Source of the DNA: Hysterangium stoloniferum
Taxonomy: Eukaryota; Basidiomycota; Agaricomycetes; Hysterangiales; Hysterangiaceae
NCBI GenBank assembly: GCA_015178975.1
Contig: WHVD01000106.1
Location: forward strand, 1-64,000
Direction of reading: 5' to 3'
Length of the DNA: 64,000 nucleotides
Shown: piece after piece, positions 41,792 through 64,000 of the stretch
Layout of the letters: each line of letters begins with the position of its first letter
Numbering within the stretch: position 1 is the first letter of the stretch
Program-made: the position numbers and the translations under genes
Notes under the pieces: model-generated
What the model saw: the letters and a program-made list of their open reading frames with translations, nothing else
Database searches by the model: none
Told to the model about the DNA's origin: nothing

Positions 41792-43281
41792 TTACTGTGC
41801 AGCAAGGCCTTCAAGCCTCCCACCAGAGGTTTCCTCACACCCCTCTGCGGAATGGACAGGGCTTCCTTCTTCATAATGTCCCCTCGAAATGAAATCTCCT
41901 ATATAATTATCTCCGACGTCCTCAATGAAAGAATGTCCAACACTGCGTACGGCCCCTCGGAAGGTAGTGAACCCGAGATTATTTGTCGTATTGATCACGG
42001 TACATGACGAGTTTAATTCTCGCAAATCGAGAAAGAAGCGGCAAACGAGAATGACGGATATGCTGCAGTTGCCATTAAGACGTCAGGTGAAATGCATGCA
42101 ATAAATACTTGCCAGCGCTCCAAGTCTGTGGCGAAGCCGTTAAATTGGGTCTGTATTCGATTTGGAATGAGTAGGTGTTAATGGAATTCACAGAGGATGA
42201 AAGATATTCACAGAAACAAACTTAGAAGAAATGTAGTGGTATCAGCTAAAAGGGGGAAAGGAGCGGCAATCCCAAACCTTATTTGTAATTAGGTCCTGTA
42301 AACTCCAGATGAAAATTACGCTGAGAAACCAAAATTAAAATTTATCAACTGAAGTCACGTTAATTTAGCACTGACGCAAATCGGATAACACCTGCGATTG
42401 ATATGGTCATATAAGAACACGTAGACTCAAATGCCGAGATGAATTACCTTGCTGCATAAGCAGATAGGTTATAGATCGTTTCCCCAATTCTTTAATTCCT
42501 CTTTGCAGCCTAATCGTGCCGATGGTGTGGAATAATGTGGTGAATACTATGAGCCCATCGAACGTAATTGCAAGAGCGCTTGTTGCCTCGTCTATAACGA
42601 TCATGTCAACTCGAGGTCTCCAGGCATATGCGAGCGACTTCTGTACTCCTGTTTAATGACATTAATACGCAATCGTGTGGTTATAGTTAAGTGAAACAAA
42701 CAGTTTTAAACTGCGAGAAACACATTCGTCACGGACTACAATGAGCTATCACACTGATGGGTATACCGATCCACACATTGCCAGTAAGTAAACACACCAC
42801 ACGGCAGGAGACTTCTTTAAGATATATGAACAAGATTGGAGTTAAGATATATTTGTTAGCCCTGCTTATAGCGTAAACCCTTGCAAGTAATATCCCTGAT
42901 ATCCCTCTTGGTTGAGTTATTCCAGAAAGTAAATGATAAATGGGTTAATCACCGTGTACACTAAGTGCCGCGACAGTTTCCAGAACATCAAAGGTGTGTA
43001 ATAGTGCATTACATGCTCTATGGCTAATCAGTACACAACTAACCTGAGGCTCAAATAGTACCACACACTATCAACTGGTTTAAGTCCAGGAACATTTTCA
43101 GGTCCATCCCATCACGCACCTCTAACGGTTCATCTGCTAAATGAATGGTGACAGCAAATATAAACACAAGTAGGTTCGAATATCGGGCGACGATGTACAG
43201 CACAGATGGTAGTCTGATCCTACTCTTCCATACGAACTGGATTTCCTCTGGAAGAGTCAAGAATGTATCATAACTAAGCAA
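41792..43281 (-). CDS. DUF6533-type multi-pass membrane protein (copy 1)
   Basis: Exon 1 begins at 43,281 (MLSYDTFLTLPEEIQFVWKS) and ends near 43,144 at a GTGCGT donor. The SYDTxLTLPEE...VWKS...LYIVARY pattern is the signature of the basidiomycete DUF6533 family. Exon 2 near 43,030-42,960 reads ISHRACNALLHTFDVLETVAAL. Exon 3 near 42,910-42,735 reads LLARVYAISRANKYILTPILF plus a hydrophobic stretch. Exon 4 near 42,640-42,450 reads ATSALAITFDGLIVFTTLFHT. The last exon (ISVILVCRFFLDLRELNSS...) stops at 41,792. Predicted helices and gene order of segments fit a 6-7 helix plasma-membrane protein. Function of the family is unknown. All introns are 50-130 nt. A near-identical copy lies at 53,564-55,063. 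Confidence 0.75.
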
Positions 43282-43538
43282 AACTGAGATGTCCGTCTAT
43301 ATAGTGTGGTAAACAACTGCGACTTTGTGTAGACAGACCCAGTGTTGCGAAATAGGTGTGAGTCAAGAGCTTACTGGAAACCTAAGTCAGTGTTGTGTGT
43401 GATGAAATGGCATAAAGGTAGTTACTCTGCAGTTGCTGCTTGAATTTCTGCCACGGATGCCATGTGAGATTTGGGTAAGTACCAGTGCTGGGTACTCTTA
43501 GCTGCTCAAGAAATTAGATTATTAGCATTCTCGGTGCA

Positions 43539-44594
43539 GTTGGAACGGACTAATCTCATTAGTCCGTGTTCTTTGTAATGGGAGTGTTTCCCTTTTAAGC
43601 TCCGCCATTGTGCAGTCAGCTCCCGCCGCCTTTTGTCTCCTGCCACCATCATCTGAGTGGCCGGCCCTCAAGGATTGCTCAGCCTTTCCTTGAGTAATTT
43701 TCTTTTTTCCTTGGAATCTCCACCCAGACACCGCTCTAGTTTTGGCACTGCCACTAGAGAGGTCCGTTCGTCCTTCCCAGCAGGGGGTTCGGAAAATGGG
43801 TGGCACAGATATCCTTCACCCTCTTGAAGTCCATCCTGCTTTTCTGTCAACCACTCCGGATCTTCGAACCATAATGGCTTATGCTATGACTTCGTCAACC
43901 CATCGCTGCCGATTGAACCATAATGACTTATCCTACACTATGCCGGCCGTGTCGGCCCTTTTGCTGCCTATGTTCCTATGATAATCCAGTGGCTCTTTGA
44001 AGAGACAGCTTTTCTGTCTTCCCTCTCCTCATCCTGGCAGGATCCTTCCACCACATTCGTTTGGCGACATTCGTGATATGTTCGCTCCCGGCCCTCCGTG
44101 CCTCCACTCCATTCTTCTTATGGGCTCGCTCATGTCCCCATCAGCATGTTTTGCGCAATGGAGCCTGCGGCCCCTGGATTCGCTTCCACCGGGGGTCCGC
44201 TCACCCAAACACGGACAGAGACAAAGATGGAACGGACTAATCTCATTAGTCCGTGTTCTTTGTAATGGGAGTGTTTCCCTTTTAAGCTCCGCCATTGTGC
44301 AGTCAGCTCCCGCCGCCTTTTGTCTCTTGCCACCATCATCTGAGTGGCCGGCCCTCAAGGATTGCTCAGCCTTTCCTTGAGTAATTTTCTTTTTCCCACC
44401 ATCCCACCCTTTCCTGCTCCTTTATTGCCCTAAAACTAGTAGTTTAGATTGAACTTTCATGTATTTACTGTTAGTTTGGCATGCTGTTGGGCTCGCTCAT
44501 GTCCCCATCAGCATGTTTTGCGCAATGGAGCCTGCGGCCCCTGGATTCGCTTCCACCGGGGGTCCGCTCACCCAAACACGGACAGAGACAAAGA
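43539..44594 (+). repeat. Composite insertion built of two repeated blocks (A-C-A-C)
   Basis: Block A (43,542-43,709 and 44,228-44,393) starts TGGAACGGACTAATCTCATT, holding the inverted CGGACTAAT/ATTAGTCCG, and ends GAGTAATTTTC. Block C (44,121-44,227 and 44,488-44,594) starts TGGGCTCGCTCATGTCC and ends GACAGAGACAAAGA. C1 and A2 are directly joined. The whole stretch is absent from the paralogous position at 55,320, so it entered after the segmental duplication. Family unknown. Confidence 0.7.
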
Positions 44595-45490
44595 ATATGT
44601 AGTATGATCGCAGGCGCTCAATGAGACGCAACTTTAGCCAGCTTGTGGCTTTAGATCATAATGACTTACGCAATTATGAATTGGAAGCACACGTTTGCAG
44701 CCATTTTCCATCTTCCATCTACTGTGTTCCATGCATGGCAAATCAGTATGATCATTTTCCATGTGGATGTACTGGGCACATTGTTGTGGAATAGAGTTGT
44801 AACTGTGGTAAAGCCATCTTGTACTAAGTATGTACCGTATACCACTCTGCATTAGGTCAACTCCCACGGAGAGAGCCGTCAAATGTTTGTCGCTCATACA
44901 CGTCATTAGAAGAGGCAGTCTGCAGAAGCGTTACACCCGGCTTTCCACCCACATCTTTTCCTCCCCGACGTCCACTGGGTGGGGACAACTCAATGAGTGA
45001 AATATGTATTACACCTAAGCAATTTTACTCCAGGCATGCTTGCGGGGAAAACCCTAGTATGTACTTTCTTCTGTAAATTGGACTCTCGAAAGACTAACGT
45101 TGTTTATTCGTTAAGGTCGGTTCTGCAAAGGAACGCAAATGGACACCGTAAGGGCGTTCAGAGCGGCGCATGTCGTCCTTATTTTTTGTTCAAACAAAGA
45201 AATTCTATGTAAAACGCCATTTCCCTCAATAGCTACAGGAAAGCCCGCACCCTTGTCCGTCGGCAAGAAAGGTTTTGCGCTGCTGGAAAGAAAGGCCGTT
45301 GGTCCTCTATTAGAGGCCAAGATTTCCCCGAAGGTTGGGGTGGGGAGCACTTGCGGATGTTATCAGAGGTAACAAGGTGGGATAATCGTTTTACTTGCAG
45401 ATCATACGTTTTATGATTGGAGGATCAACTGAATTCGATCGAAATTTCCGTGAAGGACAGCAGAGTCAAAACGCGTATCACGTGAAATAG
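44595..45490. other. Shared segment f of the duplicated unit
   Basis: Matches 55,321-56,420 with gaps. It contains open frames (45,139-45,372 plus; 44,906-44,634 minus) without domains. Part of it (45,140-45,490) is also present inverted at 37,906-38,250. I recognise no gene. Confidence 0.45.
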
Positions 45491-45957
45491 AATTTTTTTT
45501 TTTAATACATTTATATACCGCATCGCATAACTAAGATACATGGCGGTTGGGAGAAAAGTACCCTAATGGTAGGTGGGGGCAGCAGGATGTGTATGTAGCT
45601 GGTTGGTATGGGCAACAGGGTCGAATGTAGGGCGGGGAGGAGCAGGGATGATGGGCCGGTTATGCTTTCCGGAAAGCATCAGAGGCGGCGATGAACTCAG
45701 CTAGGGCTTCAAGGCCCTTGTAGGTGCCGAGGATAATGGGGAGTGATAGGTCTTGAGAGGCAGTGCGGAGGGTGTGGCGGTGCTCCTCGTGAAGGGGGCA
45801 CTAGGAAAGGATGTGGAGGCGGGACTGGATGTCTTCTGTGCCACAGGGACAGGAGGTGGGGAGGTCGGGGAGGAAACGTTGGTAGTAGGCGTCGCAGAAG
45901 CCGTGGCCCAAGTTGGCCTGGATGACGCATGTGTGGACGTGGCGAGGACCACCATAT
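45491..45957 (-). mobile_element. 5'-truncated LINE copy with tail and target duplication
   Basis: Minus orientation: the T-run at 45,493-45,503 is the poly-A tail. Upstream the minus strand reads EYGGPRHVHTCVIQ...CPCGTEDIQ...SDAFRKA, homologous to the end of the 20-kb LINE. The 13-bp TCACGTGAAATAG occurs at 45,478-45,490 and 45,958-45,970. One in-frame stop interrupts the peptide near 45,807, so this copy is older than the one at 20 kb. Confidence 0.9.
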
Positions 45958-46179
45958 TCACGTGAAATAGTAGGTTTGGTGGTCAGATTCACTTGAGTAC
46001 CGTGGACTAAAATCTTTTACCGAAGGGAATGTGTTCAACCTTACTAATATGCCCAAATTAGTGACGATCTTTCTTCACAGTCAAAGTCTTCTCACTCAAA
46101 GAGAACGACATGTGAGATGAGGAGTAGACTTTTCGCGGATCGCAAGTCCTCAGCAGCAGTCTTCTCTACCTCGTCGTCA

Positions 46180-46404
46180 TCTTTGTTGTCTTTAAAAAGC
46201 TGATATTAGAGGCCACACCACCATCGGCCGCGCTTCTCCAGCCATCCCCAATACCTCCAAACAACGCGTCCAGACCGGCCACGATGACATGCACCCTCTT
46301 CACAACGTTCAATAAAAAACGCAACAGCAGCTCGTCACCATCATATACTTCGGAGAATCCGACAACGACGTTGTACCATTTCCAAACATTCGCGTCTCAC
46401 CTTT
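46180..46404 (-). CDS. Conserved minus-strand exon candidate, copy II
   Basis: The minus strand reads VYDGDELLLRFLLNVVKR, VIVAGLDALFGGIGDGW and SAADGGVASNIS before a stop. The same peptide, with SLFEDDDG at its end, is read at 56,686-56,904. The amphipathic and hydrophobic pattern and conservation between copies look coding, but an overlapping plus-strand frame (46,284-46,532) is open as well. Start not resolved; family not recognised. Confidence 0.35.
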
Positions 46405-46516
46405 TAGGAGAAGCGAACAGTTTGAATCGTCCGTATCACGCTCGTTCTCACGGATCGCCGCGGGCTTTCGGGCATCCACGTTCCCCGCACCGACCCCTCT
46501 TGCCCAACTCCAGAAT

Positions 46517-47600
46517 TTGCAAGGTCTTTTAAAGTCAACCCAATCAAAAATTGGTGCGGTCGTTCCAACACCGTCAGCACCATCTCCACAATTACCGAAG
46601 AAGGCTGCAAGTACTAAGCGTCACGGCCCTAAACCCGCCCGACTTGGTCCTGCAGAGGCAAAACGTGCGGTGTATGCTCCCGATTATACCGCCGACGATG
46701 AAAAGATCCTATCGGCGCGAATAGAGCCTCGCCATGCCATGCAGACCCCGACCCAGATGCCAATGTGTTCTTGGATAATGGCATGGACGTAGACAGAGCA
46801 TTTACACCTCGTTCCGCGATCCAGCAGCAGGGAAGCACAGGTCCATCATCTTCAAATGACAAAGTCTCATCAAAACCGCTGGAAGTCCTCCGTAGCCAAG
46901 AGGCTGAAGTGGAATTGCTTATTAACCTCGATAATGATTCAAGTGCCACATCCGAAGAGACAAATCCCCTGCCAGCAGCCTCTGCACAGCTATCCCCATG
47001 TAAAGCGCAATTATTATTATTGGTGGTATCAAGGCTAACGCCGAGATTCAAGGTGCAACGCAGGCACAGCAGGAATGAAATTGTCACTGTTAGGTTTAAT
47101 GGATGATGGTAGTGACCGTTCTGGTGTGCCGAAGGTGGAAAGTTCTGAGTCGGATACCATTGTCAAAGGGTTAAACGCTAGGTGAGTTTTTCTGTTCATC
47201 TTTAATAAACAAAAAGCGTGCCGATCTAACAAGCATATACTACACAGACTGTCGTCTCCCACATCCCTCCATACCAGCACATTTAATGAAGTAAATACAC
47301 GACGGTCCATGCGCCATCCCCCCAACCGAGGTGTGAAAGTAGAATTATTCCGTGACGACTCCCCCAGCCCATCCACACCTAGAATCACATTCAAACCCAA
47401 ACCCAAAAGCAATGTCGCATGCCCGCTAGACATGTTCCTCGCAGAAAATCGTCGCGGAGAAGCCCGCAAGGCCGATGTCGAAGGAAAATGCGATCCAGTG
47501 GCGTGGACGGCTGAGGGGTCAGTCTCGGATGGGTCGGATATTTCGCTTCTGCGGAGAGAAACTGTGGAGAGGATAGAATGCATGCAAGCTCGATGTTTCT
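46517..47600 (+). CDS. Ser/Pro-rich gene of unknown function, copy II
   Basis: Frames linked by plausible introns read KKAASTKRHGPKPARLGPAEAKR, then RAFTPRSAIQQQGSTGPSSSND and EAEVELLINLDNDSS. After a good intron (GTGAGT...ACACAG, about 47,181-47,247) they read NRGVKVELFRDDSPSPSTP, FLAENRRGEARKADVEG and EGSVSDGSDISLLRRE. The protein would be basic then acidic and largely disordered. Frames change near 46,780 and near 47,030, so the copy may be damaged or have unrecognised introns. Homologous copies are at 38.5 kb (partial) and 57-58 kb. Confidence 0.4.
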
Positions 47601-47810
47601 CTTTGAATTGCCCTTTAAATTCTTGGCAAGGCTGTCCTTCCTGTCTGAATGCTCCTCTGGATTCTTGGCAAGTCCACCGCTCTTTTCCGAATGCTTCTTT
47701 AAATCCTTGGAAAGCCCACGCGCGCCACTCCTCTCTAAATGCCCCTTAAAATCTTGGCAACCTCATGGCTCCTTTCTAAACGTTCCTTTATTTTCTCGAC
47801 AAGCTCATTC
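47590..47810 (-). repeat. 42-bp minisatellite, about 5 units, copy II
   Basis: Same unit as at 40,173-40,560 (TTCTTGGCAAG...CTGAATGCTCCT). It lies just after the Ser/Pro-rich gene. Confidence 0.8.
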
Positions 47811-48036
47811 CTTCCCGAGTTGAGCACAACATCTAGTTTAACCACTTCAAGTGGTGAACCGAGGTATTGCTATACACACTCGATATTTGATTGTTGAGGA
47901 TCGGTTATCGTTAGAATGCCGAAATCTTTCGGATGAGATGTATTTGTAGTCATAGCGGGAGTCGGGCTAAATGCGGTTCCAAAGAAAATTTAGGACGTCT
48001 CAAGGCAAATAACATATCGAGGGTGGTGAGTGGTGG

Positions 48037-48061
48037 CGGGGGGGGGGGGGGGGGGGGGGGG
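48037..48061 (+). repeat. Poly-G tract
   Basis: An uninterrupted run of about 24 G. The paralogous place near 58,535-58,565 has only GGTGGTGGGAGGGGG. Confidence 0.95.
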
Positions 48062-49676
48062 TGGAAGCGACTTTCCAGATATATGCGCTCATGTAGAGTA
48101 TTAGCCCCAAGAACACCCTCGAGTCCGAATTTTAGACTCATCTTACTGTGACTCGTGCGTGCAGTACAGCCTTTGTGCACCATGACTTGGGCATTATATC
48201 AGATAACGGAATTCACAATAATGAAGAAGTACGTTTTGTATGCTTACGCTGCAAAGAGGATCCTGAAAATTGCAAAGCCATTGTGTCCTGTGCCCGCGTA
48301 TTACAATTCTGATATTTCGGACTCTATGGGATTACATGTGGCATCTGCCATGTGACTGCATGGAGTGGCAATGCTGAAGCAGTTGCGGTTGCAGTTTCAG
48401 GTGTAGGTATAGTGGGGATGTTGGTGTCAATGAAAATCATGAGGTGTTCCACATCGCCACGGTTGTTGCAGTATAAATGGAGGAGTGTAGGCCCATATGA
48501 GATGGGTATATGCATTTTGGAGAGACACCAGACTTGAATATTTGTGTTGGTGGTATTCAATGGTGGGGTCAATGCTGTTACAGAGTGAGTTTCATTTTGG
48601 TGTTCTATTAAATGGCATGGCCTAGCCTAGCATGGCTCATCACTCAGTGTGCTCAGCATCTGTACATTCCCATCCCCTAACTGCAAAATCCCACCCTCCC
48701 ATCAACCTCGAACTCTTCAGAACTTGTTTAGTGACATACTGTGATGGACAGTGACAGTGGTGGGTGGTGGCAGTGGGAGTGGTGGCAATGATGGCACAGA
48801 TAATTGTGATGTGTGGTGATGGATGATGGTGGTAGTTGGTGGTGGATTAAGAGTGCGTAGAAGTACCTGGTGGCCTGCTTTGCAGTGTATTAGTGGATGG
48901 AATTCAATGTATTTTGTATTTTAATGAATTGGCTTTCAAAGTAATATGAGCTGGAATTATGTGCAAAAATACACAAAAAGTGACACTGGTCCTACTTAGA
49001 TTCAGTGTCTTAAATGCATCATCCAACAACCGCTTAACGGCTTTAAATCAGAGTTTGAACACTGCTACAATGTGTTTCTCACCCTTAGATGAAGTGCCTA
49101 GACTGCTTCATTGAAGTGCACACTTCTTATAGTGTGGAACATTGTTGGACTTTATGAAACAAGTTGAAACTGCTGTCCCTTGACAGACCCTAGCAGTAGC
49201 AGCGCTAGCTGGCACAAATATACTACCCGATTGCAAGAATGTACAATATCAATTTAGCCTAGTACTACAGTGATCAGTCAATTGGATATCAACAGTTAAA
49301 GAATTACTATTGAAATCACAACAGCTTCAGTCATTTCCTGCAGTGATTTTCTGTGAGCATATATCCCTCTAGAGCTCAATCTCAAGAACATCAAATATTC
49401 ACTTTGGTCATCCTATTGTCATGAAGATGCTCCCGCTCCTGCTAAACAAGGAGTCTAGTCTAGTTATCCATTCTGAGTGAACAGATTTAGGAAAATTAGT
49501 CGACATCTGAACGGTACCTGACGATTTCTCTGGCCTTATATTTTACTTCATCAAGTGTCATAAATGTCTTTCATTCCATGGTCAGTGATAATATTTAGCA
49601 GATAGCCCCCTTAGATTACTGTGCAGCAAGGCCTTCAAGTCTCCCACCAGAGGTTCCCTCACACCCCTCTGCGGAA
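48062..49676. other. Duplicated flank with a piece of the DUF6533 3' end
   Basis: Contains ATGGGATTACATGTGGCATCTGC-type sequence shared with 58.8 kb, the GGT-rich tract (48,740-48,850), and the 3' flank of a DUF6533 copy. The last coding part (CTCCCACCAGAGGTTCC...) is near 49,640-49,676, where an LTR interrupts it. Confidence 0.5.
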
Positions 49677-49681
49677 TGGAA

Positions 49682-50555
49682 TGTTAGAATTAAGGCGCAG
49701 GTATGCATCAGTACATCGTGGACGCGAACAAAAAGCATTAGTATTACTAAGTGTTAAGAACTGAAAACTGACTAATGTCGGTGGCCAACAGGGACCGATC
49801 GGAAGGACTTGGCTTCAGCTTATGTGCTGCGCCCTCGCAAATATCTGTAGGGTGTCCTTAGATTTCGGGTGGGCGAAGACTTAATCCTAAAGAGCTCTTT
49901 TCAGCAAGATACCAATTGGAACTGAAGGACAAGTCGAGCATCGAGCCAAGGGGTCGGGGCCGGGAGTGGGCGAGCGCACGCGGAGGCGGATGGGGGGATT
50001 CTTAGTATGAGACTATTACAGGCGTATGAGGGTATTCTGAGTCGATATTCTGATTGCCTAGTAACTACAACTACAGCGGGTTCATATACAAGTAACAGGC
50101 GTCTAGAAAATACTAATGGGGAGAAGGGTGGAAAACGGTATTAACAATAAGCTTGACTAGGAACGGGAAGTTTATGATTAGTTCGGAGGCTGATGATAAC
50201 CGAGGGTGGAATTACAATAAAAGGAAATAGTTCAATGACTACAAATATAGATAGACATATGTGAAACATAAGGTTGAACGGATCAACATAATAAAGGGGA
50301 CATATCAAAAGTTTGACCAGACAATACGAGTTATTTTGACGTGGGTGTAAACAGAGTTTGATCTTCACGAAAACATACGTCAGCTTCGGGGCCGATGGTT
50401 TCCGAGATGGTGACTTGAAACGTTGATAAGTGGCGATAACCTCGGGACCGATAGGGTTGTGACACGGTCGTAACACTAAGCAGCTATACAGTAGTTACTT
50501 ATCTATTTACAAAAGAATGCAAGATTACTAACTAAATATATACAATATTTCAACA
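49682..50555. mobile_element. Small solo LTR (about 145 bp) split by a larger solo LTR
   Basis: Ends TGTTAGAATT...TTTCAACA; 5-bp duplication TGGAA at 49,677-49,681 and 50,556-50,560. Removing the inner LTR (49,752-50,475) and its extra CTAAG leaves about 145 bp. It sits in the last exon of a DUF6533 copy. Family unknown; older than the inner one. Fossil. Confidence 0.8.
49752..50475 (-). mobile_element. Solo LTR A (724 bp), TGTTACGAC family
   Basis: Duplication CTAAG at 49,747-49,751 and 50,476-50,480. Minus-strand start TGTTACGACCGTGTC, end TTCTTAACA. Roughly 95% similar by eye to solo LTR B. Related to the LTR at 3,630. Confidence 0.9.
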
Positions 50556-50573
50556 TGGAAAGGGATTTCCCCT

Positions 50574-51294
50574 TGTTAAGAACTAGAAACTGACTAATGT
50601 CGGTGGCCGACGGGGACCGATCGGAAGGACTTGGCTTCAGCTTATATGCTGCGCCCTCGCAAATATCCGTAGGTAGTCCTTAAATTTCGGGCGGGCGAAG
50701 ACTAATCCTAGTGAGTACCTTTCGGCGAGATACCGATCGGAATCGAAGGACAAGTCGAGCGTCGGGCCAAGGGGTCGGGGCCGGGAGTGGGCGAGCGCAC
50801 ACGAAGGCGGATGGGGGGATTCTTAGTATGAGACTGATACAGGTGTATGAGGGTATTCTGAGTCGATATTCTGATTGCCTAGTAACTACAATTACAGCGG
50901 GTTCATATACAAGTAACAGGCGTCTGGAAAATACTAATGGGGAGAAGGGCGGAACACGGTATTAACAATAAGCTTGACTAGGAACGGGAAGTTTATGATT
51001 AGTTCGGAGGCCGATGATAACCGAGAGCGGGATTACGGTAAAAGGAAATGGTTTGAGGACTACAAATATAGATAGACATATGCGAAACATAAGATTTGAA
51101 CGGATCAACATAATAAAGGGGACGTATCAAAGTTTGACCAGACAATACGAGTTATTTGACGTGGGCGTAAATGGAGTTTGATCTTCGCGAAACATTCGTC
51201 AGCTTCGGGGCCGATGGTTTCCGAGAGGATGACTTGGAACATTGACAAGTGGCGATAACCTCGGGGCCGATAGGGTTGCGACACGGTCGTAACA
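50574..51294 (-). mobile_element. Solo LTR B (721 bp), TGTTACGAC family
   Basis: Duplication CCCCT at 50,569-50,573 and 51,295-51,299. Same orientation as LTR A and only about 100 bp from it, but with its own target repeat. It is therefore an independent insertion and not the second end of one element. Confidence 0.9.
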
Positions 51295-52290
51295 CCCCTT
51301 CACAAAGTCCCCGCGAAATAAAATCCCCTACCTAATTATCTCCAATGTCCTCAATCAAAGCAAACCCGATACCGCAGACGGTCACCTGAGCACAACATTG
51401 TTCCTCATATTAATCGTGTTATATGATGAGTTTAATTCTTGCAGATTGAGAAAGAAGCGGCAAATGAGAAGGATGGATGTGCTGCACTTGAGATTAAGAA
51501 GTTGGGCGTAGTGTATGCGATAAACACTTGCCAGCTTTCGAAGTTTGCGCCCAAGTCTCTAAATGTGGCCTATATTTGGATGTGAGATGAGTACGTGGTA
51601 TAGAATTCTCAGGGGATAAAAGATATTCACTGAGACAAACTTAAAAAAGATGTGATAGTGGGAAAAAGGGAAAAAATGGTAATAATCCCAAACCTTATTC
51701 GTAATTAGGAGTTGTAAATTCCATATGAAAATTATGCTGACAAATAAAAATCAACATACTGAAGTCATGTTAATTTAGCACTAACACAAATTGGAGAACA
51801 CCTGCAATTAATATCATGAGGGTCATAAGAACATGTAACCTCAAACCCCGAGGTAAATTACCTTGTTGTACAAATATATAGGTTATAGATTGTTTCCCCA
51901 ATGCTCTAATACCTCTGTGTAGCCCAATCGGTGGAACAACGTGGTGAATAATATGAGCCCATCAAACGTAATTGTAAGAGCGGTTGTTGCTGACTCTATA
52001 ATGGTCATGTTAACTCGAGGTCTCCAGGTATATGCAATCAACTTTTGTACCCCTGTTTAATGATGTTAGTTAATACACAATCGCGTGGATCTCCCTGAGT
52101 AAAATGAACAGTCTGATGCTGGATCAAGAAATGCAATCTTCAAAGGCTAAGATAAGCTATGACACTCATGGGTATACCGGTCCACATATTGCCAATGGGT
52201 AAACATACCACACAGCAGGAGACTTCTCCAAGATATGTGAACAGGATTGGAGTCAAGAGGTATTTGTTATCCTTGCTTCTGGTCTTTTAA
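51295..52290 (-). pseudogene. DUF6533-type pseudogene (copy 2)
   Basis: Homologous to 41,880-42,850: the intron-exon pattern and parts of the ITFDGLILFTTLF exon are visible near 51,990-51,900. The 5' exons are missing because the next duplicated unit begins at about 52,280. The 3' exon is split off by the LTR cluster at 49.7-51.3 kb. Several small changes break the frames. Confidence 0.7.
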
Positions 52291-53563
52291 TTAATGGCAT
52301 AGTCTAGCATCATCTCATCACTCAGTGTCCTCAGCATATTTACATTCCCATCACCTAACTGCATAATCCCACTCCCAACAACCTCTGACTGCTCGGAAAT
52401 TGTTTACTAGCATATGGTGTTGACAATGGTGGATGGTGGCAGTGGTGGATGCCAGTGACGGTGGTAGTGGTGGCAATGATGACAGCGATAATGGTGATGG
52501 GTGGTGATATATTAGTGGTTGGTGGTGGAATAAGAGCATGGTAGAAATGCTCAGTGAATGCAATGTATTAGTGGAAAGTATTTAGTGTGATTAGTATTTT
52601 AATGAATTGGTTTGAAGAGTAATATGAACTGAAATCCAGTGCAAAAATACGCAGAAAGTGACATCTGACCTACTTAGATTCAATGCCTTAAATGCATCAT
52701 TGAACAACCGCTTAACGGCTTTAAATCAATGTTTGAGCACGGTTGCAAAGTGACCTTTGATGAAGTGCCTAGAGTGCTTCATTTAAGTGCACTAACTTCC
52801 TACAGCGTGGAACATTGTTGGACTTCATGAACACGTTGAAAATGCTGTCGCTTGACGGACCCCGAGTAGTAGCGGCGCCGGCACCAAATATATCAGCGGG
52901 TTGCAAGAATGCATAGCATCCATTTAGCCTAGTACTGTTGCAGTGATCAATCGATTGGAATTGTCGGTTAAAGAATTACTATTGAAATCACAAAAGCTTC
53001 AGTCATTTCCTCGGGTGGTGTGCTGTGAACATCATCCCGGCCGAGCTCAACCTCAGGAACCTCGAATATTCACGTTGAGACATCCAATCTTCATAGAGAC
53101 GCGAAGGCTCCCCCCTAAGGAAGGAGTCTAGTCATCCACTGTTCTGAGTGTACAGATCACATACAGTGAATAGCTTTTGAGGCTGAAGTTTCCTTTCAGT
53201 CTGATACAACTATTATGTTTGCCCTCTATAATTACTGTGATGCGAATGGGATGCAATGGTACTACATGTAATGACTGATATAAACCCTCTGGATAGTCTA
53301 CTGTATTCTTCTCAGTCTGGCTCAGTTCAGATTGATTTATGTGTATGATTCCACACAATTTTGAGTGAGCGGGTGCTTTATAAATAAATAAATACAAATA
53401 TTCGTGCGGGCCTACTAATATCTTGAATACATCTATAGGAAAATGAGTTGAGATGTGAACTGTATCCAACGATTTCTGGGGGCTTTTATTTTACTTCATC
53501 AAGTGTCATAAATATTTTTAATTGCATAGTCACTGATAATATTCAGCAGATAATCCCCTTACA

Positions 53564-55063
53564 TTACTGTGCAGAAAGGCCTTCAAGTCTCCCACCAGAG
53601 GTTTCTTCACACCTCTCTGCGGAATGGACAGGGCTTCCTCCTTCATAATGTCCCCTCGAAATGAAATCTCCTATATAATTATCTCCGACGTCCTCAATGA
53701 AAGAACGTCCAATACTGTGTACGGCTCCTCGGAAGGTAGTGAGCCCGAGATCATTCGTCATATTGATCACGTTACATAAGGAGTTGAATTCTCGCAGTTC
53801 GAGAAAGAAGCGGCAAACGAGAATGGTGGATATGCTGCAGTTGCCATTAAGACGTCAGGTGAAATGCATGCAATAAATACTTGCCAGCGCTCCAAGTCTG
53901 TGGCGAAGCCGTTAAATTGGGTCTGTATTCGATTTGGAATGAGTAGGTGTTAATGGAATTCACAGAGGATGAAAGATATTCACAGAAACAAACTTAGAAG
54001 AAATGTAGTAGTATCAGCTAAAAGGGGGAAAGGAGCGGCAATCCCAAACCTTATTTGTAATTAGGATCTGTAAATTCCAGATGAAAATTACGCTGAGAAA
54101 TCAAAATCAAAATTTTATCAACTAAAGTCATGTCAATTTAGCACTGACGCAAAGCGGAGAACACCTGGGATTGATATGGTCATATAAGAATACGTAGACT
54201 CAAACGCCGAGATAAATTACCTTGCTGCATAAGGAGATAGGTTATAGATTGTTTCCGCAATTCTTTAATACCTCTTTGCAGCCTAATCGTGTCGATGGTG
54301 TGGAACAATGTAGTGAATAATATGAGCCCATCGAACGTAATTGCAAGAGCGTTTGTTGCCGAGACTATAACAATCATGTCAACTCGAAATCTCCAGGCAT
54401 ATGCAATCGACTTCTATACCCCTGTTTAATGACGTTAATACACAGTCGCGTAGTTATAGCTAAGTGAAACAAACGGTTTGAAACTGGGCCCAGACATACA
54501 ATCTTCATGGACTATGATAAGCTATCACACTGATGTGTATACCGGTCCACACATTGGCAGTAAGTAAACACACCACATAGCAGGAGACTTCTCCAAGATA
54601 TGTGAACAAGATTGGAGTTAAGAGATATTTGTTAGCCCTGTTGATAGCGTAAATCCTTGCAAGTAATACCGCTGACAGCCCTCTTGGTTGAGTTATTTGA
54701 GAAAGTAAATGATAAATAAATAAATCACCGTGTACACTAAGTGCCGCGACAGTGTCCAGAACATAAAAGGTGTGTAATAGTGCATTACATGCTCTAGTTC
54801 TATGGCTAATCAGTAAACAACTAGCCTGAGGCTCAAATGGTACCACACACTATCAACTGCTGTAAGTCAAGGGATATTTTCAGGCCCATCCCATCACGCA
54901 CCTCTAATGGTTCATCTGCTAAATCAATGGTGACAGCAAATATAAACACAAGTAGGTGTGAATATCGGGCCATGATGTACAGCACAGATGCTAGTCTGAT
55001 CCTACTCTTCCATACGAACTGGATTTCCGCTGGAAGAGTCAAGAATGTATCATAACTAAACAA
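53564..55063 (-). CDS. DUF6533-type multi-pass membrane protein (copy 3)
   Basis: Same exon structure as copy 1. Exon 1 starts at 55,063 with MFSYDTFLTLPAEIQFVWKS and LYIMARYSHLLVFIFAV. Later exons are NALLHTFYVLDTVAALS (about 54,800-54,740), LLARIYAINRANKYLLTPILFTYL (about 54,680-54,560) and TNALAITFDGLILFTTLFHT (about 54,375-54,250). The last exon stops at 53,564. Residue changes relative to copy 1 are modest and the frames are kept, so both may be functional or recently so. The role of this membrane family is unknown. Confidence 0.7.
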
Positions 55064-55320
55064 AACTGAGATGCCCGTCTATATAGTGTGGTAAACAACT
55101 GCGACTTTGTTTAGACAGACCTAGTGCTGCGAAATCGGTGTAATCCCAGAGCTTACTAGAAACCTACGTCAGTGTTATGTGTGATGAAATGGCATAAAGG
55201 TCGTTACTCTGCAGTTGCTGCTTGAATTTCTGCCACGGATGCCATGGGAGATTTTGGCAAGTACCAGTGCTGGGTACTCTTAGCGGCTCAAGAAATTAGA
55301 TTATTAGCATTCTCGGTGCA

Positions 55321-56435
55321 CTATGTGTCATTATATCCAGTTTGCTAATATATATTAGTTGCAAATACTCTCATTGCGGGCGCTCGGTGAGAAGCAACTC
55401 TAAGCGGTCTGTCGCTTTGGCACATAGTAGCTTACGCAATTATGAATTGGACACAGGTTCACAGCTACCAGCTCCATCAGAACCTTGATAAGAGTACTCA
55501 TTTGAGTGCCAAGGAGTTCCGTCATATAGCAAATTACCATCACTTCATCATTACATAGTAAGCTGCCATCGTCCATCTTCCATGTACTGTTTACCATGGG
55601 GTGGCAAATCAGTATAATCATGCACCTCAACTATATAGTTATGGAGTAGAGTTGTAACTGTGGTAAACCCATCTTTTACTAAGTATGTACCCGTATACCA
55701 CTCTGCATCAGGTCAACTCCCACGGAGAGAGCCATCAGATGTTTGTCGCTCATACACGTCATCAGAAGAGGCAGTCTGCAGAAGCGTTACACCCGGCTTT
55801 CCACGTACATCTTTTTCATCTTCTTGGTCCCCCTCGTCATTCTTCTATTCTACTCCTCACCATCAACAGTCGTTCCAGACCCTGGGAAGAACAAATCTTT
55901 CTTGACATTTTTAACGTGCCACCTTTTTCGTCACTCTTATAATCTCGGGCAGATCTCTTGCAGCACGTCTCACGTGTACAAATGAAAAATCCTCTGGACC
56001 ATCTACTGTATTCTTGTCAGGTTTGACTGGGAGAATAATTTACTTGTATGATTTTATGCGTTTTTAGGTGACCACGTATTTGACGAATAATTAAACATAA
56101 ATATTCATATTAAGACTGGCGGTTTGATACAACTATTATATTTGCCCTCTATAATTACTGTGATTCGAATGGGATGCAATGATACTACATGCAACGACTG
56201 ATTTGTACCCTCTGGACCGTCTACTGTATTCTCCTCAGGTCTGACTAGGTTCAGATTGTTTTGCACTGCTGTAAAGAAAGGCCGTTGGTCCTCTATTAGA
56301 TGTCAATATTTTCCAGAAGATTTGGAGTGGGAAGCGCCTGCTATTATCAGAGGTAACGTCAAGGTGGATAATCACATTACTTGCAGATCATACGTTTTAT
56401 GATTGCAGGAAGGAAAGCGGAGTCAAAACGCGTTG
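55321..56435. other. Copy of segment f
   Basis: Shared with 44,595-45,470 but rearranged. It also contains a copy of the CTGTGATGCGAATGGGATGCAA stretch (near 56,160) otherwise found near 41,460 and 53,235. No gene was recognised; a hydrophobic ORF at 55,743-55,985 is probably chance. Confidence 0.4.
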
Positions 56436-56462
56436 CGATGCGGTATATAAATGTAATTTTAC
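56436..56462 (+). mobile_element. Tail-only LINE remnant
   Basis: GCGATGCGGTATATAAATGTA, the 3' end of the 20-kb LINE, sits between AAAACGCG and GTATCACGTGAC. Compared with 45,470-45,480, it is an extra insert at the paralogous site. Orientation is plus, opposite to the LINE at 45,491. Confidence 0.6.
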
Positions 56463-56685
56463 CCCCGTATCACGTGACACACTAGGTCCTGTAGTCAGAT
56501 GCGACCGGTCCAAGTACCATAAACTAAAATCTTTTACCAAAAGGCATATATTCAACGTTACTAATATACCCCAGTTAATAAAAATCTTTATTCAAAGTCA
56601 AAGTCTTCTCAATCAAAGGGAGCGACACGTGAGATGAGGAGTAGTAGACTTTTCGCGGATCGCAAGTCTTCAACCGCAGTATTCT

Positions 56686-56904
56686 CTACCCGTCGTCATC
56701 TTCAAAAAGGCTGATATTAGAGGCCACACCACCGTCCGCCGCGCTTTTCCAGCCATCCCCAATTCCTCCAAACAACGCATCCAAACCGACCACGATGACA
56801 TCCACCCTCTTCACAATGATCAATAAAGAACGCAACAGCAGCTCGTCACCATCATATACTCCGGAGAATCCCACGGCGACGTTGTACCATTTCGAAACAT
56901 TCAC
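56686..56904 (-). CDS. Conserved minus-strand exon candidate, copy III
   Basis: Reads NVSKWYNVAVGFSGVYDGDE, LLIIVKRVDVIVVGLDALFG and SAADGGVASNISLFEDDDG, then stop. Homologous to 46,180-46,404. No Met start in frame, so probably a terminal exon. Not recognised. Confidence 0.4.
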   Translation of the reverse strand: MNVSKWYNVAVGFSGVYDGDELLLRSLLIIVKRVDVIVVGLDALFGGIGDGWKSAADGGVASNISLFEDDDG

Positions 56905-58171
56905 GTCTCACCTTTTAGAAGAAGCGAACAGTTCGAATCCTCCGTATCACGCTCGTTCTCACGGATCGCCGCGGGCTTTCGGGCATCCACGTCCCCCGCA
57001 CCACCCCCTCTTGCCGAACTCCTGAATTTTCAAGGTCCTTTAAAGTCAACCCAATCAAAAATTGGTGCGGTCGTTCCAACACCGTTAGAACCATCTCCAC
57101 AGTTACCGAAGAAGGCTGCAAGTACTAAGCGTCACGGCCCTTCACCACCTAAACGCGTCCGACTTCGTCCTGCAGAGGCAAAACGTGCGGTGTATGCGCC
57201 CGATTATGACGCCGACGATGAAAATATCCTATTGGCACGAATAGAGCCTCGCCATGCCATGCAGACCCCGACCCAGATGCCAATGTGTTCTTGGATAATG
57301 GCATGGACGTAGACACAGAATTTACACCTCGTTCCACGATCCAGAAGTAGGTAAGCACAGGTCCGTCATCTTCAAATCACAAAGTCTTATCAAAACCTCT
57401 GGAAATCCTCCCTAGCCAAGAGGCTGAAGTGGAATTGCTTATTAACCTCGATAATGATTCAAGTGCCACATCCGAGGAGACAAATCCCCTGCCAACAGCC
57501 TCTGCACAGCCGTCCCCATGTACAGCGCGTGCAATTATTATCATCGCTGGTATCAAGGCTAACGCCGAGATTCAGGGTGCAACGCAGGCGCAGCAGGAAT
57601 GAAATTGTCACTGTTAGGTTTAACGGATGATGGTAGTGACCCTTCTGGTGTACCGAAGATGGAAAGTCCTGAGTCAGATACCATTGTCAACGGGTTAAAC
57701 GCTAGGTGAGTTTTTCTGTTCATCTTTAATAAACAAAAAGCGTGCCGATCTAACGAGCATATACTACACAGACTGTCGTCTCCCACATCCCCCCATACCA
57801 GCACATCCAATGAAGTAAATACACGACGGTCCATGAGCCATCCCCCCAACCGAGGTGTGAAAGTAGAATTATTCCGTGACGACTCCCCCAGCCCATCCAC
57901 ACCTGGAATCACATTCAAACCCAAATAGCAAAGCAACGTTGCATGCCCGCTAGACATGTTCCTTACAGACAATCGTCGCGGAGAAGCCCGCAAGGCCGGT
58001 GTCGAAGGAAAATGCGATCCAGTGGCGTGGACGGCTGAGGCGTCAGTCTCGGATGGGTCGGATATTCCGCTTCTGCGGAGAGAAAGTGTGGAGATCATAG
58101 AATGCATACAAGCTCGATCTTCCTTATCAATTCTTGCAAGTGCGAGTTTTGATAATAGGCCTTTGCTGTGA
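56795..58171 (+). pseudogene. Ser/Pro-rich gene, copy III
   Basis: Blocks homologous to copy II: KHKPAR-like region near 57,130, TPRS region near 57,320 with a stop early in the frame, EAEVELLINLDNDSS near 57,425, then an intron (about 57,705-57,773) and DDSPSPSTPGITFKP, FLTDNRRGEARKAGVEG and ASVSDGSDIPLLRRES. More stops than copy II, so probably decayed. Confidence 0.4.
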
Positions 58172-59744
58172 CCACTAGGGTCTCAGAAAATTGATTCCTG
58201 TGTTCAGTATAACTGTCGTAGCCAAAACTCAAGATCGTCCCCTGCCCTATCATAAGGCAAAGAATTACGCAGCCATATTCTGCCCTTGTATCCTACAAGA
58301 TTTTACTGGATGTCCATCTACGCTGTGGATGAAAATGATGTCACCGTCAGAAGTTATAACCACTTCAAATGGTGAACCGAGGTATCGCTATACACACGAT
58401 ATTTGATTGTTTAGGATCGGTTATCGTTAGAATGCCGAAATCTTTCGGATGAGATGTATTTGTAGTCATAGCGGGAGTCAGGCTAAAGGCGGTTCCAAAG
58501 AAAATTTAGGACGTCTCAAGGCAAATAACATATCGAGGGTGGTGGGTGGTGGTGGGAGGGGGAGATCGAGTTTCCAGATATATGCGCTTATGTAGAGTAT
58601 CAGCTCCAAGAGACGAGAACTCCCTCGAGTCCGGATTTTAGATTCATTTTACTGTGACTCGTGCAGTACAGCCTTTGTGCACCATGACTTGGGCATTATA
58701 TCAGAGAATGGGATTCACAATAATGAAGGAGTAAGTTTTGTATGCTTACGCTGCAAAGAGGATCCTGAAAATTGAAAAACCATTGTGTCCTGTGCCCATG
58801 TATTACAATTCTGACATTTCGGACTCTATGGGATTACATGTGGCATCTGCCATGTGACTGCATATCAGGAGTGACAATGCCGAAGCGGTTGCGGTTGCGG
58901 TTGCAGGTGTAGGTGTAGTGGGGATGTTGGTGTCAATGAAGATCATGAAGTGTTCCACATCGCCACGGTTGTTGCAGTATAAATGGAGGAGTGTAGGCCC
59001 ATATGAGGTGGGTATATGCGTTCTGGAGAGACACCAGACTTGAATATTTGTGTTGGTGGTATTCAATGGTGGGGTCAATGCTGTTACAGAGTGAGTTTCA
59101 TTTTGGTGTTCTAATAAATGGCATGACCTAGCCTAGCATGGCCTCATCACTCAGTGTGCTCAGCATCTGTACATTCCCATCCCCTAACTGCAAAATCCTA
59201 CCCTCCCATCAACCTCGGACTCTTCAGAACTTGTTTATGACATACTGTGATGGATGGGGGGAGTGGTGGATGGTGGCAGCGGTGGATTCCAGTGAAGGTG
59301 GCAGTGGGAGTGGTGGCAATGATGGCAGGGATAATGGTGATGGGTGGTGATGGATGATGGTGGTGGTTGGTGGTGGAATAAGAGTGCGTAGAAGTGCTCG
59401 GTGGCCTGCTTTCCAGTGTATTGGTGGATGGAATTCAATGTATTTAGTATTTTAATGAATTGGTTTGAAGAGTAATATGAGCTGGAATTATGTGCAAAAA
59501 TACACAAAAGTGACACTGGTCCTACTAAAATTCAGTGTCTTAAAATGCATCATCCAACAACTGCTTAATGGCTTTAAATCCGTTTGAATACTGTTACAAA
59601 GTGTTCATACCTTAGATAAAGTCTCTAGAGTGTTTTATTTTAAGTTCACTAACGTCGTACAGTGAAACATCGTTGGACACGCCGAAACTGCTATCCCTTG
59701 ACAGACCCTAGTAGTAGCGGCGCCGTCACCAAATATATTAGCAC
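58172..59744. other. Duplicated non-coding flank
   Basis: Shared with 47.8-49.0 kb, including the G-rich tract near 58,540 and the GGT-rich tract near 59,230-59,380. The duplicated sequence stops near 59,740, where a purine-rich minisatellite begins. No gene was seen. Confidence 0.5.
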
Positions 59745-60008
59745 AAATAGGAGGGTGATCAGAAGAGGGCGAGGTGAGAAAGAAAGGATACACGCACATC
59801 CTGCAGGAAAGAGAGCGGAGATCGATCAGAGGAAGACAAAGAAAGAAGGAAAGGGTTGACCCACCAACTTGTTAGATTATATAATACCAACCATTGTTCC
59901 AACTGGGACCATATGGTGTACAGCTCTGAGTTCAGTGTGTATATGATCTAATAGGAATGGCACTTAGGGTTATATCCTTAAGTACAGTGTAAGACCAAAC
60001 CTACCCAA

Positions 60009-60080
60009 GGTCAGATGGTGTAGTGGTTAACACCTTCGTTATGTAATCGAGAGATCCTGGGTTCAATCCCCAGTCTGGCT
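60009..60080 (+). ncRNA. tRNA-like module in the left LTR
   Basis: 72 nt folding as a cloverleaf: acceptor GGTCAGA with TCTGGCT (one G-U), D stem GTGT with ACAC, T arm CTGGG-TTCAATC-CCCAG. The anticodon stem has four pairs and a mismatch. The loop is TATGTAA, giving TGT (Thr) at the anticodon position, but position 33 is A and not U. A box TGGTGTAGTGG (60,016-60,026), B box GGTTCAATCCC (60,060-60,070), and a TTTT run at 60,086-60,089. Likely Pol III promoter; unlikely to be a translating tRNA. Confidence 0.75.
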
Positions 60081-60421
60081 ATTCATTTTCTACATTACTC
60101 ATGTTTTCTAACATGGTAGCAACTCCAAGGTTAACTTGGTTTGGCTGTATTTGTGTGTTTGGTATAGTGGACAAGTCTGGACGAAAAAGAGCCAGAGAGG
60201 ACCTATACTGGGCATATGATATAGTTAATACCCAAGATCGAACCTGGAGTGTAGAATGAACAATGCTGGCATTAAGGGGGTGTGTTAGATTATATAATAC
60301 CAACCATTGTTCCAACTGGGACCATATGGTGTACAGCTCTGAGTTCAGTGTGTATATGATCTAATAGGAATGGCACTTAGGGTTATATCCTTAAGTACAG
60401 TGTAAGACCAAACCTACCCAA

Positions 60422-60493
60422 GGTCAGATGGTGTAGTGGTTAACACCTTCGTTATGTAATCGAGAGATCCTGGGTTCAATCCCCAGTCTGGCT
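60422..60493 (+). ncRNA. tRNA-like module in the right LTR
   Basis: Same sequence as 60,009-60,080, displaced by 413 bp with the LTR. Confidence 0.75.
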
Positions 60494-61066
60494 ATTCATT
60501 TTCTACATTACTCATGTTTTCTAACACAACTGGGGGAAGGGGAGCGGAGGGGGATCAAAAGAGGACGAAGAGGGAAGGAAAGGATACACGCACTCGCTGG
60601 AGGAGGAGAGAAGTGGCCGGTCGGAGGACGAAGAAAGAGTGCAGGGTAGACGCACATCCTGGGGGAAAGATAGGAGGCCGATCAAAGGGGGACAAAAAGA
60701 GAAGGGCAGGGAAGACGCACCAACTGCAATAAAGAGAGTGGTACAATCAGAAGAGGACGAAGAGAAAAGGAAAGGATATACTCACATCCTGGAGAAATGA
60801 GAGAGGAGGACAATCGTGGGGGGATGAAGAAAGAAGGAAAGGAGACACACCAACTGGAGGAAGGAGAGTCGAGGACGATTAGTAGAGAACGGGGAGAGGA
60901 AAGGGCACATGCACTTGCTAGAAGAAGGAGAGCGGAGGCCGATTAGCAGAGGCCGAAGAGAGGAGAGGGTAGACACACTCGCTGGAGGAAAGAGAAGAAG
61001 ATCCAAACCAATAGCTCATTGTAAGGGTTTTGTTGCACACATTTTTAAAGTTCAAAATGGGTCCTA

Positions 61067-61108
61067 GTCACATGACTTTGTTTATAAAGTTCAACAAAGT
61101 CATGTGAC
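61067..61108 (+). repeat. 16-bp inverted repeat with TATAAA loop
   Basis: GTCACATGACTTTGTT and AACAAAGTCATGTGAC pair perfectly around a 10-nt loop TATAAAGTTC. It lies between the transposon end and its gene, so it may be a promoter or transposase-binding site. Confidence 0.85.
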
Positions 61109-61173
61109 CACTCTTCCTCAATGTATATAAGATGAAAGCAACCAGTTGGAATCCCACAATCACCCTACTCACA

Positions 61174-62190
61174 ATGAAAAAGCTCTCCTCCAGCCAAATC
61201 CAACATATTCTTACTCTACTTGACTCTGGCATTTCTGGAGCTCAAATATGTTACCAAACTCATCTCAGCAGTGCCACCATCAGTCGTATTCACTCTGAGC
61301 ATCACCCTGACCTCCCCAAATGCTCTGGTGGCCATCCTACAAAGCTTACCACAGCCAATATTGCCTATGCTAGAAGAATAATTTGCATGGGGAAGATTGA
61401 TAATGCCACACAGGCAACCAAGAAACTTATAGACATCATCAACACTCCTATTACTTCACAAACAGTGCATTGCCACCTCAAAACCATAGGCATGAGGGCT
61501 GTGGTAAAGAGAAAAAGGCCACTTCTCAAACCTCATCATCGGAAATCTTGATTGGAGTTTGCAGAAAGGCATTTGGAATGGACCCTGGAGGACTGGAAGA
61601 GGGTCATATGGTCTGATGAGACTAATATTAATAGGCTGGGATCAGATGGAAGGAAATATGTGTGGAAAAATGTGGGTGAGGGGTTAAATGATAGGTTAGT
61701 AGAGGGAACAGTCAAGTTTGGAGGAGGAAACCTGATGATGTGGGGATGCATGGGCTGGGATGGGGTTGGGTTTGCAACTAAAATTGATGGGAGGATGGAT
61801 GCTGAGATTTATGTTGAGATCCTGGATGATGAACTCCAGCAAACCCTCAAATATTACAACAAAACAGTGGCTGACATTGTGTTTCAACAAGACAATGACC
61901 CCAAACACACCAGCAAAAAGGCCCAGAAATGGTTCACTGACCATGATGTTACAGTCATCAAGTGGCCTGCACAATCTCCTGACATGAATCCTATTGAACA
62001 TCTGTGGAATCATGTCAAAAAGAAGCTGGGGGAGTATGAACAGCCTGCAAATAGTGTTCATGAACTGTGGGAGAGGGTGCAGAAGGTGTGGGAAGAGATT
62101 CCAAAGGAGGAGTGTCAGACACTTATTGAGAGTATGCCTAGAAGACTTGCAGCAGTGATTAGAGCAAAGAGGGGCCATACTAAATACTAA
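61174..62190 (+). CDS. Tc1/mariner transposase (DD34E), one in-frame stop
   Basis: Cuts and pastes the element in the nucleus. The ATG at 61,174 is preferred over the in-frame ATG at 61,132, because a TATATAAG box ends at 61,130. Total 338 codons, the usual length. The N-terminal helix-turn-helix runs SSSQIQHILTLLDSGISGAQI with SSATISRIHSEH, followed by a second HTH (TSQTVHCHLKTIGMRAV). Catalytic residues: WSDET (first Asp, about 61,615), FQQDNDPKHTS (second Asp, about 61,893) and SPDMNPIEHLW (Glu), with 34 residues between the second Asp and the Glu. A TGA at 61,549-61,551 replaces what is likely an Arg codon (CGA) before LEFAERHLEW. That is a single C-to-T change. No other break was seen, so the copy is young but inactive. 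Confidence 0.85.
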
Positions 62191-62253
62191 TTTCTTGTAA
62201 TAATAGTCTCAAAATAGTGTGCAACAAAACCCTTACAATGAGCTATTGGTTTG

Positions 62254-63165: not shown

Positions 63166-63170
63166 CCTGT

Positions 63171-63299
63171 TGTTAGATTGAGTAATGCTAGCAGTGCTTT
63201 CCCAGGGTCAGGTGGTGTAATGGTTAACACCCCTGCTATATATACAGAGGCCCTGGGTTCAATCCCCAGTCTGGCCATTCATTTTCTACACTTTTAACA
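63171..63299 (+). mobile_element. Solo LTR (129 bp) of the tRNA-like LTR group
   Basis: Begins TGTTAGATTG, ends TTTTAACA; duplication CCTGT at 63,166-63,170 and 63,300-63,304. It is much shorter than the 244-bp LTR. Shared are the first ~9 bp, the tRNA-like module, ATTCATTTTCTACA and the end. A relic of a second family member. Confidence 0.85.
63206..63276 (+). ncRNA. tRNA-like module in the solo LTR
   Basis: 71 nt: acceptor GGTCAGG with TCTGGCC, D stem GTGT/ACAC, T arm CTGGG-TTCAATC-CCCAG, degenerate anticodon stem with loop TATATAT. A box TGGTGTAATGG (63,213-63,223), B box GGTTCAATCCC (63,256-63,266), TTTT at 63,282-63,285. Confidence 0.7.
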
Positions 63300-63304
63300 C
63301 CTGT

Positions 63305-64000
63305 CCAGCACCAAAGTTGAATGCATCTTCACATACTATGCCCCACCATATTCCTGCTGCCCTTCATAGGGAATCCATCTCATGAAAGGTATCCCTGGAG
63401 CTTTCTCCACCCCTGAAGAATGCACCACTTTCCTCAGGACACTCAGGTCTACCATCCACGAGGCCAACCTATTATTATTATTATTATTCACAAGTAGATC
63501 TGAGTAGACCCGTCCTCCCTCATCATTTACACTGATGGCTCCTGCCACAAAGGACATGGCAACTCATGCTGTACTGGTGCTGGCTACTCCATCCACCACC
63601 TTGGTGCCCCCATCCGAAAGGATCAAATCAGCCTGGGCAAATGGGCAGGCATCTACAATGCTGAGATGCTTGCCCTAGCAAGCGCCTGTGCTGCCTTGCC
63701 TGTCATCACCCCTGACCTTCCTGAAATCAAGCACTTCCTATTTTTCTCCGACAACCAAGCCACTCTGAAGTCCATTGATGACCTCTCAGACCACCCTTCC
63801 CAGGATGCTTCCATTATATTCTGGAAACACATTGACACATTACAATCTGACCCTTCCTGCCACATCTCCCTCTCCTGGATCCCTGGGCACCACAGCTTCC
63901 ATGGCAACAAGGAGTCCAATGCCCTTGCAAAAGAGGCAGTCAACTTCCACCCTCCCCTCCTCCATTCCACCACCTCTTGGGCCCTGGAGCATGCGAAAGT
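63305..64000 (+). mobile_element. LINE with RNase H region, continuing past the window
   Basis: From about 63,516 an open frame reads RNase H: IYTDGSCHKGHGN (first catalytic Asp, 63,534-63,536), NAEMLALASACAAL (Glu), FFSDNQATLKSIDD (Asp) and WIPGHHSFHGNKESN. It is close to the 20-kb LINE protein (SIDDxSDHPSQ, HSTxSWALE). Upstream sequence (63,305-63,490) is probably the linker before RNase H but carries an ATT repeat (63,470-63,488) and no continuous frame. The left limit is unclear. Confidence 0.8.

Follow-up and report, generated by a model that had tools for sequence, protein, structure and literature searches.

How does a retroelement of 657 bp with no coding capacity come to carry a tRNA-like gene in each of its terminal repeats, and by what would such an element be transcribed? 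The question is raised by a locus in the first 64,000 nucleotides of a contig of Hysterangium stoloniferum (WHVD01000106.1), the stretch analysed here and referred to as the window. The pair of LTRs with tRNA-like modules, noticed in a preliminary description of this DNA, is confirmed. The element is very probably a Helenus-type TRIM (TRIMp3), that is, a miniature LTR retrotransposon without coding capacity, in which each LTR bears a predicted Pol III promoter derived from a tRNA. The structural reading is strengthened by a second, solo LTR and by the pattern of differences between the two LTR forms. The fungal protein kinase family PF17667 has two matches in the window, one at 31.4 bits (cut-off 24.1) and one just below the cut-off at 23.8 bits, and these matches, like the retroelements present, are consistent with fungal DNA, probably that of a basidiomycete.

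Architecture and insertion of the element

The element (59870–60526) consists of two 244-bp LTRs on the plus strand, at 59870–60113 and 60283–60526, around a 169-bp internal region (60114–60282). By repeat and sequence comparison the LTRs are 100% identical over their 244 bp, as the preliminary description had indicated, and each starts with TGTTAGA and finishes with TCTAACA, giving the TG...CA ends also described there. At the 5' edge of the internal region, adjoining the LTR, stands TGGTAGCAAC (60114–60123, plus strand), the sequence starting with TGG that had been likened to a primer site and that is kept here as a candidate primer-binding site. The 3' edge of the internal region, abutting the 3' LTR, reads AAGGGGGTG. 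A polypurine tract had also been reported; it is present but short, being just AAGGGGG ahead of the 3' LTR (60274–60280, plus strand). The longest stop-free stretches measure 70 codons on the plus strand and 93 codons on the minus strand, leaving the element without coding capacity. The motif TATATA occurs at LTR position 9 (59878), and AATAAA and ATTAAA, both sought in the element, are absent from it.

The element is flanked on both sides by CAACT (59865–59869 and 60527–60531), in agreement with the preliminary description; as a measure of chance, identical 5-mers with the spacing of the element occur at 98 of 63323 window positions. The insertion lies within a degenerate tandem array (59750 to about 61000) whose units recur about every 64 bp. 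When both flanks are joined with a single CAACT, their alignment to neighbouring array units spans the junction, with one of six such alignments stopping short of it. The array units at 60718 and 60848 contain CACCAACTG unbroken, which amounts to an empty site with CAACT once, and two further units carry CACATCCTG and CACTTGCTA at the junction point. Because two neighbouring units are uninterrupted and contain CAACT once, the 657 bp and one copy of CAACT were added to a pre-existing array unit.

Other mobile and duplicated DNA lies nearby. A Tc1/mariner-like transposon (61004–62253), 0.5 kb downstream of the TRIM, has 43-bp inverted ends that are 97.7% alike and two adjoining frames matching HTH and DDE_3. 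Upstream, the region 40631–59742 holds diverged large duplications, namely 40631–43538 and 52395–55320 (91.5%), 45948–47600 and 56461–58124 (90.2%), and 47835–49205 and 58352–59723 (87.4%), the last of which stops about 150 bp before the TRIM.

Putative promoter signals in the long and short LTRs

A covariance or tRNA search of the LTR had been proposed with the preliminary description, and both kinds of search return a tRNA-like module in each LTR on the plus strand (60009–60081 and 60422–60494). Each module matches the Rfam tRNA model RF00005 at 49 bits (gathering threshold 29; E 1.9e-7 for 64 kb), and ARAGORN assigns both to Thr with the anticodon TGT. The modules are 73 nt long, one more than the cloverleaf first described. 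The A and B boxes described inside each LTR are found by motif search on the plus strand as a box A-like TGGTGTAGTGG (60016–60026, copy at 60429) and a box B GGTTCAATCCC (60060–60070, copy at 60473), which are spaced 44 nt from start to start. Downstream of the module are two T4 runs that could act as weak Pol III terminators (60086–60089 and 60104–60107, plus strand; copies at 60499 and 60517). These four are the only runs of at least four T in the element, all of them in the LTRs downstream of the modules, so that the reported T-run is present but just four T long. In the Rfam alignment the acceptor and T stems are intact, and the previously noted A at position 33 and unpaired base of the anticodon stem appear as an A and a closing U-U mismatch. 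The body of the module may resemble tRNA-Val, and its anticodon reads UGU.

A BLAST search of the window with the long LTR finds a match at 63201–63290 (84.6% over 91 columns). The match belongs to a related solo LTR of 129 bp (63171–63299, plus strand) with the borders TGTTAGATT...TTTTAACA and with CCTGT on each side (63166–63170 and 63300–63304); identical 5-mers with the spacing of the solo LTR occur at 68 of 63851 positions. In the window a single complete element is accompanied by one related solo LTR, and each has its own target duplication, of the distinct kind that the preliminary description asked for among copies: CAACT for the one and CCTGT for the other. The module of the solo LTR (63206–63277, plus strand) scores 40.3 bits against RF00005 in a separate Rfam search and is unlisted in the faster-filter scan of the 64 kb. 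ARAGORN calls it Tyr(ATA). Its minimum-energy fold differs from a cloverleaf, and compared with shuffled sequences both this module and that of the long LTR fold unremarkably for their composition (z -1.40 and -1.86), which speaks against a conserved tRNA fold. Each of the three ARAGORN calls in the window thus falls in an LTR of this sort, a warning that LTRs of the kind are taken for tRNA genes by tRNA-finding programs.

The solo and long LTRs have in common their ends, the module, the T-run and the 3' flank TTCATTTTCTACA, and share little upstream, where 35 nt precede the module in the solo LTR versus 139 in the long LTR. The presence of two LTR forms in one window indicates which parts are kept, namely the ends, the module and the T-run. 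Over the module and 3' flank, the two forms differ at 13 of 86 positions, one being a gap. Ten of these differences fall among the 23 positions of the anticodon arm and variable region, and three among the other 63 (2/25 in the 5' part with box A, 1/25 in the T arm and 3' acceptor strand, and 0/13 in the 3' flank). The clustering gives a Fisher p of 5.5e-5 for classes drawn post hoc on two sequences, and it describes a pattern and is not a rate test.

Proposed transcription and priming

In the proposed scheme, TFIIIC would bind the A and B boxes of the 5' LTR, and Pol III would start about 18–20 nt upstream of box A (PMC4937561), which corresponds to 59996–59998. The polymerase would pass the weak T4 runs of the 5' LTR, cross the internal region and terminate at the copies of these runs in the 3' LTR. 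The resulting RNA would be about 0.5 kb long with the tRNA-like module at both of its ends (R). T4 tracts terminate weakly in budding yeast (PMC9278858), where read-through transcripts arise from many tRNA genes (PMC4937561), which by analogy makes a partial read-through of the T4 runs in the 5' LTR plausible. The scheme has a problem in that the RNA would have to escape trimming at its tRNA-like ends, whose acceptor and T arms are well preserved. Minus-strand synthesis would then be primed at TGGTAGCAAC by a host tRNA, perhaps initiator Met through its 3' end, and the plus strand would be primed from the purine tract. Gag, reverse transcriptase and integrase would be supplied by an autonomous LTR retrotransposon, which by the rule for fungal Helenus would be of the Copia type, the type to which mobilization of Helenus in fungi is attributed (Kojima, 2024; PMC10886601). 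The internal hairpin described below is perhaps the RNA feature that the autonomous partner recognizes.

The promoter can also be read in other ways. A pair of genuine host tRNA-Thr genes, produced by local (tandem) duplication, might be mistaken for LTRs, and the Thr(TGT) assignment made twice by ARAGORN and the intact acceptor and T stems are what such genes would display; the idea is hardly credible and is rejected on the TG...CA ends, the target duplication, the uninterrupted neighbouring units that serve as empty sites and the related solo LTR elsewhere, to which the A at position 33 and the mismatched anticodon stem can be added. It is unlikely, though less far-fetched, that the element is an ordinary Pol II-driven TRIM transcribed from the TATATA at 59878, whose LTR has picked up a SINE or tRNA gene as a passenger. 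This reading can draw on the location of that motif at LTR position 9 and on the published main text, in which Pol III function is considered likely, yet is not experimentally validated for any Helenus (Kojima, 2024; PMC10886601). Against it, the solo LTR retains the ends, the module and the 3' flank but hardly any of the long LTR's upstream region, and the differences between the two forms avoid the box regions. The same start rule would place the Pol III start of the solo LTR at LTR position 23–25, so that not much space is left within that LTR for a promoter further upstream.

Very improbable is a further reading, in which the tRNA-like RNA encoded by the LTR is the element's own primer for reverse transcription. 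TGGTAGC, with which the internal region opens, does complement the 3' end of the tRNA-like sequence plus CCA, but the pairing ends after these 7 nt and three of them fall to the universal CCA, whereas a host initiator tRNA ending in GTTGCTACCA (an assumed end) would pair over 10 nt. According to the main text of Kojima (2024; PMC10886601), complementarity of this kind was not found in Helenus. Of the earlier suggestion that the module is kept for transcription or priming and not for decoding, the transcription part gains support from the solo LTR and the difference pattern, and the self-priming part is weak, given a complementarity of 7 nt. A search for initiator-Met tRNA in the contaminant contigs returned 0 hits. 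A literature search for TGGTAGCAAC gave, among the matches listed, none on retrotransposons as judged by title. The same sequence occurs a second time in the window, at 32697, where it is preceded by GAA and by no LTR end, and this occurrence is treated as chance.

A Helenus-type TRIM, the reading preferred here, needs an autonomous partner. All 48 stop-to-stop frames that reach 120 aa in the window were compared with Pfam, and none has a Copia-type match. The window does contain a Gypsy-type LTR retrotransposon on the minus strand (25279–32671), with two identical 1274-bp LTRs, GTCGA on both sides and a 1554-aa stop-to-stop frame that matches reverse transcriptase and, weakly, aspartyl protease. 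It was rejected as a partner of the TRIM, because its internal region begins with AAATTGGTGG and neither LTR ends nor primer site are shared. Further retroelement remains in the window include two diverged copies of an RNase H region (20234–20505 and 63729–64000; 71.7% over 272 bp), the former with an RNase_H match and the latter running off the window end, and a frame of a Retrotrans_gag protein that includes ten copies of a 19-bp tandem repeat (6188–6376).

A predicted RNA hairpin between the LTRs

Most of the internal region is filled by a predicted RNA hairpin of the sense strand (60122–60250, plus strand), and folding of the whole region predicts 56 pairs, including 11 G.U. The sense strand of 60114–60282 reaches -59.1 kcal/mol (z -4.86), a value equalled by 0 of 200 shuffles; the antisense strand reaches -30.6 kcal/mol (z -0.87), with 39 of 200 shuffles as good. 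Taken alone, 60114–60250 gives a z of -6.31 or -5.34, varying with the shuffle set. As a yardstick, the window was tiled with 137-nt windows on both strands with 30 shuffles each (at least one of them gave no value), and 3 of 984 reach z -5.34, so that the hairpin is rare in the window and not unique. The raw energy of the hairpin is attained by 3 of 2556 windows. When the two arms are aligned on the sense strand with both kinds of wobble scored alike, the alignment contains 40 Watson-Crick, 10 G.U and 1 A.C columns, 6 other mismatches and 9 gap columns, and the excess of G.U over A.C has a one-sided p of 0.006. Elsewhere in the window, 17161–17297 has a z below -5 on both strands, as a DNA-level inverted repeat does, unlike the one-stranded hairpin of the TRIM.

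The hairpin may possibly be a decayed DNA inverted repeat without RNA function, an explanation that deserves serious consideration given that the tiled windows hold a few cases of equal z and equal raw energy. The unremarkable folding of the antisense strand weighs against it, as does the skew of 10 G.U to 1 A.C, which is expected under upkeep at the RNA level but not if an inverted repeat decays neutrally. From these folding models we infer that the hairpin may be a cis-acting RNA signal, and it offers a concrete and testable candidate. A more speculative extension, put forward tentatively, is that the element represents a minimal parasitic design, in which the LTR is reducible to integrase ends and a tRNA-type promoter, as in the 129-bp form, and the internal region to a primer site, a purine tract and one RNA-level hairpin. 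The hairpin would then be a packaging or dimerization signal for a foreign Gag, and so would act in cis to let a Pol III-driven TRIM capture its partner in spite of lacking LTR similarity.

Comparison with Helenus and other known systems

The preliminary description knew of no fungal family of this kind, but such families are on record: TRIMs that bear tRNA sequences have been named Helenus and include 113 families in Pucciniales as well as families in the Agaricomycetes. The group is known from Agaricus bisporus, Coprinopsis cinerea and Amylostereum areolatum, and beyond fungi from several animal phyla and the lycophyte Selaginella; its members have a PBS and a PPT and, in fungi, 5-bp duplications (Kojima, 2024; PMC10886601). 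In the record available, one other work, a meeting report, cites the group. Literature searches on tRNA-bearing TRIMs, on agaricomycete TRIMs and on basidiomycete elements of tRNA origin gave no second fungal description among the matches listed, judged by titles and the starts of abstracts. At the DNA level the element had no match in plasmids or phages, and exact patterns of the tRNA-like module had 0 matches in viral_contigs and 0 in genome_contigs; by description the collections cover viruses, bacteria, archaea and plasmids, so these negatives have little bearing on fungi.

The element is like Helenus in its TRIM form (657 bp, with LTRs of 244 and a non-coding internal region of 169), in the tRNA-derived sequence of each LTR (two Rfam tRNA matches) and in its 5-bp target duplications, which fungal families share. 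Most Helenus families have box B as GGTTC and box A with YGG, and the element has GGTTCAATCCC and an TGGTGTAGTGG that ends in TGG. Solo LTRs with duplications and a degenerate tRNA that is unlikely to decode are further common points. The candidate PBS at one LTR edge and the candidate PPT near the other have a form suited to such sites. The element differs in that its box A lacks TRGCY, a feature of most families that is not defining, and reads TGGTG. In fungal Helenus the majority of primer sites correspond to the anticodon loop and several use the tRNA 3' end (Kojima, 2024; PMC10886601); with a candidate that starts with TGG, the element departs from most fungal families and would group with the users of the 3' end. 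It also differs in its long internal RNA hairpin, for which a word search of the main text of Kojima (2024; PMC10886601) with hairpin, stem and packaging gave no match. On sequence features, the element is probably a new Helenus family, the comparison being one to which the Helenus consensus sequences (supplement and Repbase) are external, so that identity with a named family is possible. Helenus, a group that received its name in 2024, would thus probably gain a family, the kind itself having already been described.

Helenus has been compared with the plant TRIM Cassandra, whose transcript begins within the 5S sequence carried by the 5' LTR and terminates within its counterpart in the 3' LTR (Kojima, 2024; PMC10886601). 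The element described here would resemble Cassandra in having a Pol III promoter in each LTR and an RNA that spans from the promoter of the 5' LTR to the terminator of the 3' LTR, and differs from it in that Cassandra carries a 5S rRNA gene and belongs to plants, whereas this element has a tRNA-like module. With Ajax, a TRIM of nemerteans, it shares 5-bp duplications and would share an LTR promoter derived from a small RNA, whereas Ajax is 5S-derived and found in animals. An Rfam scan of the window at gathering thresholds, which would list the 5S rRNA-derived sequence typical of Cassandra and Ajax, gives tRNA only. Finally, tRNA-derived SINEs (SINE2) are likewise short, mobile and non-coding and have a Pol III promoter of tRNA origin, but they lack LTRs and are mobilized by a non-LTR element. 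The present element, by contrast, is bounded by two identical LTRs ending in TG/CA, is flanked by 5-bp duplications and includes a PBS candidate as well as a purine tract.
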